NCBI GenBank assembly: GCA_021786375.1
Contig: JAJYNL010000065.1
Coordinates: forward strand, 5,902 to 45,892
DNA: 39,991 nt
DNA from: Actinomycetes bacterium
GTDB taxonomy: Bacteria > Actinomycetota > Acidimicrobiia > Acidimicrobiales > Acidimicrobiaceae
Direction of reading: 5' to 3'
Part shown: one piece after another, positions 22,722 to 25,944 of the stretch
Numbering within the stretch: position 1 is the first letter of the stretch
Layout: each line of letters begins with the position of its first letter
Translations under genes and position numbers: made by a program
Notes under the pieces: generated by a model
What the model was told of the DNA's origin: nothing
What the model saw: only the letters and a program-made list of their open reading frames with translations
Database searches by the model: none

Positions 22722-23032
22722 GCGAGAGAGTTGCAATAGGGTCCCTGGACGACTTCCCTCAGGGTCCAAAGCGGGTGGAGATCCAAGGGCACCGCGTGGC
22801 GGTGGTTCGCATTGGGGATGACTTCTACGCCCTGGGCGACCGCTGCTCGCACGCCGACTACTCGCTTTCCGAGGGCGACGTTTACGAGGAGGATCTGGAG
22901 ATCGAGTGCTGGAAGCACGGGAGCACCTTCTCGTTGAAGACGGGACGCCCGACCACCCTTCCGGCCACCCGGCCGGTACCGGTTTACGAGATCGAGGTCG
23001 AGGAAGAGAAAGTTTGGTTGAAGCTGCCATGA
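22718..23032 (+). CDS. Rieske [2Fe-2S] ferredoxin embedded in the suf operon
   Basis: 104 aa. Cluster ligands Cys43-x-His45 (RCSHADYSL) and Cys64-x2-His67 (CWKHGSTF) are intact. The protein is a free-standing Rieske domain of the type annotated as the ferredoxin component of non-heme iron oxygenases, but no oxygenase is nearby. A Rieske protein between sufD and sufC is an arrangement I recall from actinobacteria. The role there is unproven; electron donation to cluster assembly is an attractive idea. It overlaps sufD by four bases at its 5' end and sufC1 by four bases (ATGA, 23029-23032) at its 3' end, so translation of all three genes is coupled. Confidence 0.93.
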   Translation: MSERVAIGSLDDFPQGPKRVEIQGHRVAVVRIGDDFYALGDRCSHADYSLSEGDVYEEDLEIECWKHGSTFSLKTGRPTTLPATRPVPVYEIEVEEEKVWLKLP

Positions 23033-23769
23033 GCGGGTCGGATGCGAAGGCGCTGCGCCTCGAGGGCCTGCGCGCTGAGGTGGTGGGCAAGGAGATACTG
23101 CACGGAGTGGACCTGGTAATCCGGCCCGGAGAGGTTCACGCCATCATGGGTCCCAACGGCTCGGGCAAGACCACCCTCGCCTCGGCGGTGATGGGCAAGC
23201 CCGGCTACAAGGTGACCGGGGGCCGGATCTTGGTGGATGGCGAGGACGTTACCGGCCTGCCCACTCACGAGCGGGCACGCAAAGGGTTGTTTCTCATCTC
23301 CCAGTATCCCGCCGAGCTGCCTGGCGTGAGCTTCGTCGACTTGGCCGAGCAGGTGCTCGACCGCGAGCCGGCCGTTGTCGGATCGACACTCGTGGCCGAG
23401 GCGGAGCGGATCGGCCTGAAGCCCGAGCTGCTCGGACGCAGCGTGAACGTCGGCTTCTCCGGGGGCGAGAAGAAGCGGGCCGAGACCATGCAGCTCGCCA
23501 TTTTCGGCGCCCGCTACGCGGTCCTGGACGAGCTTGACTCGGGTCTCGATATCGACGCGCTGCGTGATGTGGCCCGTCGAATCGCCGAGATGGTGCGCGC
23601 CGAAGGGATCGGCGTGCTCGCCATCACCCATTACTCGCGTCTGCTCCAGGAACTCAAGCCCGATAAGGTGCATGTCTTCGCGGCCGGCAGAGTCGTCCGC
23701 TCCGGCGGGCCCGAGCTCGCCGTGGAGCTGGAGCGTACCGGCTACGGCGAGGGTGGCGGAGCGGACTAA
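23029..23769 (+). CDS. sufC: SufC ATPase, first copy (SufC1)
   Basis: 246 aa. ABC ATPase motifs: Walker A GPNGSGKT (41-48), Q-loop ISQYP, signature FSGGEKKR, Walker B AVLDELDSGLD and switch His in ITHYSRLL. The FSGGEKKR and DSGLDIDAL segments are characteristic of SufC rather than of transporters. It powers conformational change in the SufB-SufD scaffold. It ends the sufD-Rieske operon. A second, clearly different SufC is encoded at 31384-32130. Compared with that copy, this one has a shorter, altered segment between Q-loop and signature and a different walker-adjacent residue (DELDSG versus DETDSG). Division of labour is unknown. Confidence 0.95.
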   Translation: MSGSDAKALRLEGLRAEVVGKEILHGVDLVIRPGEVHAIMGPNGSGKTTLASAVMGKPGYKVTGGRILVDGEDVTGLPTHERARKGLFLISQYPAELPGVSFVDLAEQVLDREPAVVGSTLVAEAERIGLKPELLGRSVNVGFSGGEKKRAETMQLAIFGARYAVLDELDSGLDIDALRDVARRIAEMVRAEGIGVLAITHYSRLLQELKPDKVHVFAAGRVVRSGGPELAVELERTGYGEGGGAD

Positions 23770-23826
23770 GGGGATTTCCGCTCCTCGCCTGCCGCCTTGG
23801 CGCACCCCGGGTGCCAGACTGGTCCG

Positions 23827-25086
23827 ATGAGCGAGCGTACCTCGGTAACCTGGTCCTCGCTTCGCCATAGGAACTTCGCGCTTCTCTGGTTGGGTCAGAG
23901 TATTTCCATGACCGGCGATGGGATCTTCGCCGTCGCCTTGGCCATCGTGGCTCTCGATATCGACCGCAGCCCGGCCGGCCTCTCCTACGTGCTGGCTGCC
24001 CGCATCGTTCCCACGGTGGTCTTTCTCCTCCTTGGCGGAGCTGTCGCCGACCGAATGAGCCGCAGATTGGTGATGCTCGCCTCCGACGTCACCCGCGGGA
24101 TCGTGGTCGGCTGCGTTGCCGTCCTCTTGGCGCTGGGGCGCCTAACCATCGCCGAGCTGGTGGTGATGTCGCTCCTGTTCGGCGTGGCCGACGCCGCCTT
24201 TTCGCCCGCCTCGACCGCAATCGTGCCCGAGATAGTGCCGGAGGGGCTGCTGGTAAATGCCAACGCGCTCCGCTCCACCAGCCAGACGGTGGCTCAGTCG
24301 CTTGTGGGGCCGGCGCTTGGCGGAGTAGTGCTGGCCGTCATCGGCTCGGCCTGGGCTTTCGGGATCGACGCGCTCACCTTTGCGGCCAGTGCGGGCTTCC
24401 TTGTCGCGATGAGGCCCGGCCCCAAACGCCCTGGGGCCACCGTGTCGCCTTTGGCCCATATACGTGAGGGTCTGGCATTTGCGGCCCGCAACCGCTGGTT
24501 CTGGGTCACCCTGGTTGCCGCGGCCCTCGCGAACTTCGCCGCCTTCTCACCGCTGGGCCTGCTCGTCCCGCTCCTGGTCAAGGTGACCCTGCATGGCAGC
24601 GCCACCGCGCTCGGCCTGGTCTTGGCTGCCGGGGGCCTGGGCGGCGTGGCGGGCTCGCTACTGCTTGCCCGGCTCGGCTCTCCGCGCCGGCAGGTGACGG
24701 CGATGTGCGCGGCCTGGGGTGCGTCGGGGGTGGCGATCGCGGGCATAGCCTGGGCCGGCAGCCCCGTCGTGGTAGGCGCCTTCGAGTTCGCCGTGCTGGG
24801 ACTCCTGGTCTTTGGAAACACGCTGTGGTACCCGCTCATGCAGAAGCTGGTACCTCCGGGACTGCTAGGCCAGGTTTCCTCGATCGACTCCATGGTCTCC
24901 CTGGCCCTTAGCCCGCTGGGAGTCCTGGCTGCCGGCGTGGTCTCCGGGGCCATCGGAGTGCGCGCGACGCTCCTTGCCGGGGCGATCGTGGCCGCTCTGA
25001 TGCCGCTTTCGCTGGTGGTTCCAGGAGTTCGTGATCCGGATCGGCGCATGGGCGCCGGTGACGGAACGCTGCCGGCCGTGGAATGA
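23827..25086 (+). CDS. MFS transporter, probable exporter (EntS/MFS_3 type)
   Basis: 419 aa from ATG 23827. It shows a classic MFS layout: SLRHRNFALLWLGQSISMTGDGI at the first helix, the loop 2-3 motif GAVADRMSRRLV, ASTAIVPEIVPEGLLVNANALRS-type segment after helix 4, about twelve helices, and a short C-terminal tail. The sequence pattern is that of the MFS_3/enterobactin-exporter-like group that effluxes drugs or siderophores. The substrate is not inferable. There is no good ribosome-binding site (GACTGGTCCG precedes the ATG). It follows sufC1 by 57 bp on the same strand and could be partly co-transcribed. A 59-codon ORF begins seven bases after its stop, in the same frame. Confidence 0.88.
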   Translation: MSERTSVTWSSLRHRNFALLWLGQSISMTGDGIFAVALAIVALDIDRSPAGLSYVLAARIVPTVVFLLLGGAVADRMSRRLVMLASDVTRGIVVGCVAVLLALGRLTIAELVVMSLLFGVADAAFSPASTAIVPEIVPEGLLVNANALRSTSQTVAQSLVGPALGGVVLAVIGSAWAFGIDALTFAASAGFLVAMRPGPKRPGATVSPLAHIREGLAFAARNRWFWVTLVAAALANFAAFSPLGLLVPLLVKVTLHGSATALGLVLAAGGLGGVAGSLLLARLGSPRRQVTAMCAAWGASGVAIAGIAWAGSPVVVGAFEFAVLGLLVFGNTLWYPLMQKLVPPGLLGQVSSIDSMVSLALSPLGVLAAGVVSGAIGVRATLLAGAIVAALMPLSLVVPGVRDPDRRMGAGDGTLPAVE

Positions 25087-25272: not shown

Positions 25273-25568
25273 CGGGAAAAGAGATTGTGTAGCGGGTCGA
25301 AGTTCCGGATGCTCCCGATGGGTGCAAACCACGATCCGGCCGCGGCGGATCCCGCATTCACGCCTTTCTGCGCGCTTCCACCGAGGCTTAGCAGATGAAC
25401 CGCCACGGTTTGGCGATTGCGCCGATCGTCTGGGCCGCCTGCCTTGTCGGCCACAGCGGGCAATGGAACGCGGGCTCTCGCGGCCGGCCCGAGGAGCTTG
25501 TCCGAGCCGGGCAGGGCCGCGTCTCCCCCTCTTGGGGGGATCCGTAGGGGAGAAGGTCCGGGGGCGAC
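25273..25568. other. Intergenic region before the putative sRNA, no gene seen
   Basis: The only structure I can point to is a hairpin CCCCC-TCTT-GGGGG at 25525-25538, with a run of six G at 25534-25539. It has no T-tract, so it is a poor terminator. No tRNA T-loop, riboswitch core or convincing reading frame was found. Confidence 0.5.
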
Positions 25569-25584
25569 TGTGACCTCAGTCACA
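25569..25584. promoter_or_regulatory. Perfect CRP/GlxR-type palindrome
   Basis: TGTGA-CCTCAG-TCACA is an exact match to the consensus TGTGA-N6-TCACA of Crp-family proteins, including actinobacterial CRP and GlxR; the palindrome extends one more base inside (TGTGAC...GTCACA). It lies where the -35 box of the TATGCT promoter (25592-25597) would be, so a bound regulator would more likely repress than activate that promoter, unless another start site is used. Confidence 0.7.
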
Positions 25585-25591
25585 GGCGGTG

Positions 25592-25597
25592 TATGCT
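25592..25597 (+). promoter_or_regulatory. -10 element of the putative sRNA promoter
   Basis: TATGCT, 17 bp downstream of TGTGAC (25569-25574), which could serve as a weak -35. The predicted transcription start is near 25604. Confidence 0.5.
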
Positions 25598-25603
25598 CTC
25601 TTG

Positions 25604-25741
25604 GCATTGGAGCGCTGGGGCGGGTTTGCGATGCACAGCTTCGGGGGGAGCTGGGTACGCAAGCCTATTGGGGGGAAGTCCTGCAGCGCTTCAAATCTGG
25701 AGGGGGATCGGGGAGGCGGGCGACCGCCTCCCTTCTCTTCT
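25604..25741 (+). ncRNA. Putative small RNA with two G6 motifs and a strong terminator
   Basis: About 138 nt delimited by the TATGCT promoter and the hairpin terminator at 25711-25741, with no credible ORF inside. It contains a hairpin CAGCT-TCGGGGGG-AGCTG (25636-25653) whose loop holds six G, and a second run of six G (25670-25675) in a region with weak stem potential (GCAAG with CCTGC). A perfect CRP-type site overlaps the promoter. On the opposite strand the same hairpins would expose CCCCCC loops, like the actinobacterial 6C RNA, but the minus strand lacks a U-rich terminator here. I match it to no Rfam family with certainty. Boundaries are inferred, not measured. Confidence 0.45.
25711..25741 (+). 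terminator. Intrinsic terminator of the putative sRNA
   Basis: GGGAGGCGG (25711-25719), GNRA-type loop GCGA, CCGCCTCCC (25724-25732): a perfect nine-pair stem followed by TTCTCTTCT (25733-25741). The T-rich side is on the plus strand; read in the other direction it is followed by CGATCCCCC, so it does not suit the ferredoxin gene. Confidence 0.7.
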
Positions 25742-25752
25742 GCCCGTAGGTA

Positions 25753-25944
25753 TCACTCGATGACGCTTATCGCCTGGGTGGGGCAGGACTCCATTGCCTC
25801 GATCACCTTCTCGAGCCACTCATCTCCCGGCTCGGCATCCAGGACATAGAGAAAGCCGTCCTCGCGGACCTCGAAGATCTCCGGCGCGATCCCCATGCAG
25901 ACGGCGTTGGACTGGCACTTGTCGTAATCGACTTCGATCCGCAT
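25753..25944 (-). CDS. Small [3Fe-4S]-type ferredoxin
   Basis: 63 aa. Cysteines at 10, 16 and 54 in the pattern C-x5-C ... C-P (CQSNAVC, ESCPTQ) give three ligands; the fourth position of a 4Fe-4S site is replaced by Ala (SNAV), so a [3Fe-4S] cluster is expected. Such proteins donate electrons to cytochromes P450 and other oxygenases in actinobacteria. No P450 is in the window. The start at 25944 is preceded by GGGGTAT. Divergent from the response regulator gene; the intergenic 132 bp serves both. A likely client of the SUF machine encoded on both sides. Confidence 0.92.
   Translation of the reverse strand: MRIEVDYDKCQSNAVCMGIAPEIFEVREDGFLYVLDAEPGDEWLEKVIEAMESCPTQAISVIE

Follow-up and report, generated by a model that had tools for sequence, protein, structure and literature searches.

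The window, a stretch of 39,991 nucleotides from an Acidimicrobiaceae genome (G000), carries an operator, a -10 box, a G-rich body and an intrinsic terminator on its plus strand (25569-25743), all of which can be read directly. The operator is a perfect TGTGA-N6-TCACA palindrome of the CRP type (TGTGACCTCAGTCACA, 25569-25584) that overlaps the -35 region and is followed after 7 bp by the -10 box TATGCT (25592-25597). With a start placed 7 nt past this box and an end set by the terminator, the predicted small RNA (sRNA) would span about 140 nt (25604-25743). Two runs of six G lie in its body, one within CAGCTTC..GGAGCTG (25643-25648) and one further downstream (25670-25675), and a run of five G stands ahead of the terminator (25702-25706). 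The terminator hairpin has a GCGA loop and a modest T-rich tail (TCTCTTCTGC, 25710-25733), and it was the single site found by a terminator scan, against 0.3±0.6 expected in shuffled sequences. An earlier note on this DNA had pointed out the palindrome, the -10 box, both G6 runs and the terminator with its GNRA-type loop, each of which was confirmed by direct reading, but its count of two G-runs had missed the third. A sigma-70 consensus scan reported no promoter at the 9-of-12 threshold, because the -35 element (GTGACC, 4/6) is situated inside the palindrome and the -10 box matches at 4/6 positions only; the -10 boxes of relatives read TATAAT, TATACT, TATAGT, TACAGT and similar.

Upstream of this unit, the plus strand encodes sufC (23026-23769, above the cut-off of TIGR01978) and an MFS gene (23797-25086), and a convergent ferredoxin gene, recognised by its Fer4_13 domain, follows on the minus strand (25753-25944) and adjoins the RNA in some members. 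Just ahead of the operator there is a CCCCC-TCTT-GGGGGG hairpin (25525-25539) that is kept in G000, G003 and G004, and its C-run could pair with the G-runs of the RNA if it is transcribed. The body had been described as free of ORFs; mechanical ORFs do overlap it, but G004, which is 86% identical, differs by 1-nt indels, and these speak against any conserved frame. Alignment of G000 with G004 gives an identity of 0.55 for the upstream intergenic region (60 of 110 aligned positions, 58 indel columns), 0.87 for the ferredoxin gene, and 0.88 each for the promoter and for the RNA, the latter with 3 indel columns. Constraint on the RNA thus equals that on a protein gene, and given the indels it does not act in frame.

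Counterparts, counted by place, operator and G-rich hairpins, are present in 22 of the 42 genomes of the window's Acidimicrobiaceae-like family and in five of its eight genera (g1 7/12, g2 1/1, g3 3/5, g6 9/9 and g8 2/4), and they are missing from the counts of g4 (0/7), g5 (0/2) and g7 (0/2). One of the carriers is G018, taken as Ferrithrix thermotolerans DSM 19514, whose RNA sequence agrees, and the sRNA is thereby placed in a named isolate. A DNA search of 60 genomes, the window's own included, returned G003 (96%) and G004 (86%) besides the genome itself. When the pattern TGTGAN6TCACA-N5-9-TANNNT was run over the 42 family genomes, 13 places (six in g1, seven in g6) were judged by reading to run into a G-rich RNA and a terminator, and nine other distinct places were judged to lack these. 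Seventeen stretches behind further sufC hits were also read, four of which belong to a second sufC beside sufS; the remaining 13 were read without an operator filter, and nine of them contained the unit with TGTGA-N6-TCAC, namely those of G002 (g1), G065 and G027 (g6), G013, G029 and G019 (g3), G012 (g2), and G024 and G018 (g8). The unit was not found on reading the stretch after sufC in G009, G015, G020 and G035. Stretches of the non-carriers G017, G023, G014, G028, G031, G010 and G009 were scanned by the pattern, the other non-carriers of the family were covered by the pattern and model searches, and the first sufC locus is absent or cut in G005, G006, G010, G011 and G021.

The genomic address of the unit is also shared. 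In 12 carrier loci, as far as the contigs reach, the order is enoyl-CoA hydratase, sufD, Rieske protein, sufC and the RNA, followed by a response regulator, a histidine kinase and a phosphodiester glycosidase, sometimes with the convergent ferredoxin gene before them. The operator lies 23-89 nt after sufC in the 19 of 22 members that have no intervening MFS gene; in the window, G003 and G004 such a gene stands ahead of the sRNA (cut by the contig end in G004), and the other members lack it there. The regulated plus-strand sRNA that had been proposed for the window is supported by the recurrence of a complete unit, from promoter to terminator, at one address in 22 genomes and five genera, by a covarying stem in g1 (see below), by the lack of a conserved frame, and by the position of the promoter and the U-tail on the plus strand. 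Judged from these sequences, the units almost certainly represent a real sRNA family, which has so far been seen only in the window's Acidimicrobiaceae-like family.

The plus strand of the locus is predicted to fold stably (minimum free energy -81.9 kcal/mol, z -5.2, with none of 200 shuffles equally stable), and the minus strand does so less markedly (z -2.5, 5/200). The predicted fold is one long element in which stem P1 (UUGGAGCGCUG at 25607-25617, paired with CAGCGCUUCAA at 25684-25694) is followed by P2 (25624-25630 with 25658-25664) and by the apical hairpin P3, CAGCUUC-GGGG-GGAGCUG (25636-25653), which carries the first G-run, and then by the G6 run, the G5 run and the terminator. The second G-run is mostly unpaired (0.78), and the third is mostly paired in the window ensemble (unpaired 0.12) and reaches unpaired values of 0.14-0.54 in G004, G007, G008, G001 and G002. 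The hairpin with six G in its loop described earlier is thus real, but the prediction pairs two of these G with each other's flanks and leaves a GGGG tetraloop, and it makes the hairpin the tip of a larger element.

Covarying stems, proposed in the same note as a check, were found in P1, where double changes occur at 6 of the 9 pairs tested across seven g1 genomes; in P3 (CAGCU/AGCUG) 91.4% of the cells are paired, yet only 1 of 5 pairs is doubly changed, and G004 disrupts the two lowest pairs of this hairpin. For P1 and P3 together, with stems taken from the consensus of the same alignment, 93.9% of 98 cells are paired in the seven g1 RNAs and 7 of 14 pairs are doubly changed. Their covariation score is 0.541, compared to 0.330±0.043 after shuffling (reached in 0/500) and to at most 0.231 when the stems are slid. 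Two other measures are not clearly above the shuffles, of which 38 in 500 reach the number of doubly changed pairs and 406 in 500 the number of further pair types. Moreover, the double changes represent few events, because they follow two or three g1 subclades. A previous g1 count that included a third helix (10/18 pairs, score 0.548) has been superseded, as this helix is out of register with P2 of the window; dropping it changes the doubly changed pairs from 10/18 to 7/14, and the conclusion stands. For the same reason P2, which is predicted from a three-genome consensus and is invariant there, is without covariation support. In the alignment of the nine g6 genomes the stems hardly vary and no compensatory pair was found, and the MAFFT alignment across g2, g3 and g8 was poor, and the RNAalifold structure derived from it was left out. 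The fold z is weak in G007 (-1.55), G013 (-1.95) and G018 (-2.03). In G007, G008 and G001 an alternative hairpin, GUCCAA/UUGGAC, can form between the second and third G-run, and the minimum free energy structure of G007 prefers pairings in this region, hence the RNA may switch between folds there or the stem may be wrong. As a separate observation, hardly any change is seen among nine genomes in the g6 terminator stem, GATACTGGG..CYCAGTATC (alignment columns 81-115), a degree of conservation far beyond what a terminator needs.

What the members share more evidently than their stems is the presentation of G-runs. Runs of at least four G together with a CRP-type site are present by sequence in all 22 members. 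In the 22 RNAs (85-137 nt) the mean unpaired probability is 0.56 for G in runs of at least four (268 nt) and 0.26 for other G (664 nt). In 16 RNAs, which are related and do not represent 16 independent tests, 106.5 G-run nucleotides are exposed, compared to 44.0±7.3 in dinucleotide shuffles (0/200); G003, G001, G062, G034, G027 and G029 were left out as near-duplicates. Taken individually, the exposure reaches p<0.05 in 10 of these 16 and is not significant at this level in G061, G016, G065, G022, G024 and G018; a single run of four or more G is found in G061, G022, G065, G027 and G024. The manner of display varies between genera, as g1 RNAs use the apical loop, most g6 RNAs a 5' hairpin loop and a stretch before a hairpin, and g2 and g8 RNAs a small GGAG loop, and the terminator loop itself shows a G-run in g3 (CAGGGGGGU) and g2 (UAAGGGGCG). 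The exposed runs comprise 4-7 G while the stems differ across genera, and these differences in display point to selection for the display and not for one particular stem. The G-rich loops had been called unusual, and the oddity is real and common to the relatives.

The operator geometry is equally regular. TGTGA and TCAC are found in 22 of 22 members and the last A in 13 of them, although this invariance is partly by construction, because the operator pattern served to find 13 members and was in view when the others were judged by eye. The distance from the palindrome end to the -10 box is 6-8 bp in all 22 (the initial pattern allowed 5-9), and the palindrome is centred near -27 of the inferred start. 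A CRP site over the -35 region leads one to expect repression instead of activation, and the operator is probably a site for a CRP-family repressor. TGTGA-N6-TCACA occurs three times in the 2.83 Mb of the genome (reversed-pattern control 0); the evidence for the putative operator lies in its conservation at the sRNA promoter, and the palindrome alone is not rare genome-wide. The second of the three (C73:1698-1713) is found near the start of a cupin-like gene and also in G008 (L037), and this gene, named by ORF reading, is likely a further member of the same CRP regulon. The third (C35:2088-2103) is located between CoA-transferase-like and branched-chain amino acid permease-like genes, both named by reading. 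Just upstream of the sRNA operator, G007, G008 and G001 have a second palindrome-like site, AAATGTTNANATTT. In all nine g6 loci a second GTGA-N6-TCAC lies 32-33 bp upstream, near -60, which is the classical activating distance.

A candidate for the regulator is encoded in G000 (C64). This protein of 225 aa has its best PDB match in 3d0s/4a2u (E 2.5e-35), which we take to be the M. tuberculosis protein, and its recognition helix reads ASRERVNK, compared to ASRETVNK in 3d0s; its score of 122 bits is short of the NCBIfam CRP equivalog cut-off (266). G000 has one strong HTH_Crp_2 match (1.7e-16), the next being 1.2e-6. The gene lies next to, and divergent from, what is presumably a CarD-like gene (L133 423-1713). 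HTH_Crp_2 matches below 1e-12 are found in 21 of 22 carriers (all except G061), and also in 15 of 20 non-carriers. Among the copies read, ASRERVNK with a GEMGLF stretch occurs in six carriers and in the non-carriers G011, G031 and G032; G026 and G033 (g4) and G015 (g5) have ASRERTNK without the GEMGLF stretch. This co-occurrence of CRP protein and sRNA is suggestive and not proof. In M. tuberculosis, repression is associated with CRP sites near the transcription start and activation with sites further upstream, and CRP sites precede three sRNAs, ncRv13660c included (PMC4117774). This last RNA is B11 (PMC8805019), and is called 6C in a paper cited there.

A known Rfam family was rejected as the source of the RNA, given that the window and 16 member loci gave no match at the gathering thresholds, in agreement with the earlier note, which could place it in no family. 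The relationships within the new family were probed with two covariance models. R1, built from nine g6 RNAs and run over 38 sources (158 kb), retrieved beyond its own nine G024 (E 2.6e-6), G018 (0.007), G012 (0.047) and G019 (0.21), all at the expected places, with intervening hits on the opposite strand of terminator inverted repeats of g6 loci; for G013 and G029 it found only a 14-nt piece (E 2.2). R2, the g1 model, had the window sequence in its build and spans 25603-25739 there. Run within the family, it finds only g1 members strongly, at one place per genome, and does not reach other genera, so the link of g1 to the other genera rests on place, operator geometry and G-runs. Across 397 genomes of the order, a search for operator, -10 box and GGAGGGG matched four genomes (the members G018 and G022, and G238 and G252; reversed-pattern control 1). 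The G252 match looked unrelated, and the two places in G238 were rejected as members, being read as Shine-Dalgarno sequences of lipoprotein-like genes. These G238 loci (L109/L111), in another family of the order, combine an operator-like palindrome, a -10-like box and GCGGAGGGGG as an apparent ribosome site, and their lipoprotein-like genes share sequence. Outside the family, neither the pattern nor R1 gave anything convincing in the 397 genomes, an absence that is weakly tested because the pattern recovered two and R1 three (all g6) of nine known members in this sample. A phage collection gave no match, and in the literature no paper on the window RNA or on Acidimicrobiaceae sRNAs was recognised by title.

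Several other explanations of the unit have to be weighed. The C6 loops of the reverse complement and the CRP control of B11/6C in M. tuberculosis (PMC8805019) speak for the earlier suspicion that the opposite strand yields a 6C-type RNA, but it did not hold: the promoter and the U-tail lie on the plus strand, the minus-strand fold is weaker (z -2.5 vs -5.2), and the loops of the inferred plus-strand transcript carry G. RF01066 matched neither strand, nor anything up to E 10 on 25500-25780, and it matched none of 31 genomes, a search of limited sensitivity, as among 14 control genomes only C. glutamicum appeared, below the cut-off. This reading is accordingly extremely improbable. It is also quite unlikely that the locus comprises only a conserved promoter and operator with the terminator of a sufC-operon 3' UTR and no trans-acting RNA. 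The short distance from sufC in 19 of 22 members and the terminator at the end fit such a 3' UTR, but an MFS gene intervenes in the window and G003 with the RNA's own promoter kept, the body from the -10 box to the terminator matches the ferredoxin gene in its conservation between G000 and G004, and P1 covaries in g1.

Two further alternatives are concerned with what the G-rich loops might bind. CsrB and RsmZ are decoys with repeated GGA-like motifs in their loops, and the GGGGGA and GGAGGGG loops could similarly hold a GGA-binding protein such as CsrA, since GGA-containing motifs are repeated in or near the loops, and CsrA is patchy in the family, with matches in 32 of 42 genomes and up to five per genome. 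However, of the 22 carriers only 15 gave a CsrA match, and none was found in G000 (95% complete), G003, G004, G061, G016 (96%), G062 and G019; the assemblies are incomplete, and single absences are no proof. Furthermore, it is present in all 11 g4, g5 and g7 genomes, where no sRNA was found, and the g3 loops are G6-G7. The decoy was therefore rejected as the general mechanism and is an unlikely reading, and some other protein might bind the loops instead. Alternatively, GGAGG(GG) might mimic a Shine-Dalgarno sequence and titrate the 30S subunit, or precede a small ORF. All nine g6 RNAs contain GGAGGGG without variation, and it also occurs in g2, in g8 and in the g1 trio of G000, G003 and G004, yet by reading no start codon lies at a usable distance in g2, g6 and g8, and outside the paired terminator stem G007, G008, G001 and g3 have no GGAGG, their runs being GGGGGA or G6-G7. 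The small ORF was rejected, because indels break the frames in g1 (G000/G004) and no start was seen after GGAGGGG, and anti-Shine-Dalgarno binding as a whole is very unlikely.

The reading we favour, and hold with moderate confidence, is that of a CRP-controlled sRNA family, not in Rfam, that pairs through its G-runs with C-rich RNA. The unit would be transcribed as a stand-alone sRNA from its own sigma-70-type promoter up to the intrinsic terminator, and a CRP orthologue similar to M. tuberculosis Rv3676 would bind TGTGA-N6-TCACA over the -35 region. At high cAMP, the bound dimer would block RNA polymerase and repress the sRNA promoter, and in g6 the second site 32-33 bp upstream may add activation. 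In most members, the predicted hairpins would hold runs of 4-7 G in loops or single strands, and these could pair either with sRNAs that have C-rich loops, as a sponge similar to RosA and RsaI, or with C-rich stretches of mRNAs. Base pairing under CRP repression is preferred because the G-runs are the conserved, displayed part of the RNA and because RosA/RsaI and 6C/B11 offer parallels. Action through G-run pairing is somewhat better than an even bet, and is divided about evenly between sponging and direct pairing with mRNAs. The computation itself shows the family, its strand, the geometry of the operator, stem P1 and the exposure of the G-runs; transcription, the binding of CRP and its sign, the base pairing and the targets are what we infer here. 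Small searches for targets in sequence found none. Sites nearly complementary to the g6 seed (13-mer, 1 mismatch) comprised, across nine genomes, 9 self matches and 23 others, against 26 in the control; none of the 21 non-self sites examined is widely shared, and one pair (L199/L208) is homologous DNA. At 54 neighbouring start codons in 8 loci, taken from the longest ORFs, no C-run was common to more than two loci for any gene. The family gives the Acidimicrobiaceae an sRNA for which a regulator can be proposed, the operator is defined and the genomic address is constant, and since it recurs beside suf genes, a role in Fe-S or redox control can be tested.

Among known systems, Spot 42 (spf) is an Hfq-dependent enterobacterial RNA that is repressed by CRP-cAMP, and it thus shares with the window RNA a tie to CRP repression, which is predicted in the latter; no Rfam match connects the two. 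CsrB and RsmZ have GGA-like loop motifs in common with it, and differ in that 7 of 22 carriers gave no CsrA match. Homology to RsaI is not indicated either, as the window and 16 member loci match nothing in Rfam, which presumably holds an RsaI/RsaOG model. RosA of Bacillus subtilis and RsaI/RsaOG of Staphylococcus aureus are stand-alone RNAs with two G-rich regions under CcpA control; RosA acts as a sponge for the C-rich sRNA RoxS, and pairing with FsrA is also predicted for it (PMC8216469). Judged from its sequence, the window RNA would resemble them in being stand-alone, in its G-rich regions and in control by a carbon-status-type regulator. In contrast to the predicted CcpA site of RosA at -1 to +12, its CRP-type operator lies over the -35 region, it belongs to another phylum, and its G-runs are situated in hairpin loops or single strands. 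If C-rich sRNAs are sponged, the RosA/RsaI design would have evolved anew with another catabolite regulator in control. The closest actinobacterial parallel is 6C/B11 (RF01066; Mycobacterium, Corynebacterium, Streptomyces), which likewise presents homopolymeric loops, but 6C has C-runs where the window RNA has G-runs, the stems differ, and there is no covariance model match. In published work, crp is named as a regulator of B11 in M. tuberculosis (PMC8805019), 6C is placed in the GlxR network of C. glutamicum (PMC4046766), and the C-runs of 6C pair with G-rich UTR and ribosome-binding regions (PMC10470900), a logic of C-loop and ribosome site that the G-run loops invert. A bolder reading, which is doubtful and offered tentatively, would count the family, beside RosA and RsaI, as a third case in which G-rich sRNAs under catabolite control evolved independently, here controlled by CRP, with up to three G-runs, sponging a C-loop sRNA and tying cAMP status to Fe-S and redox genes; if true, it would mirror the circuit that CRP and 6C form in other actinobacteria.
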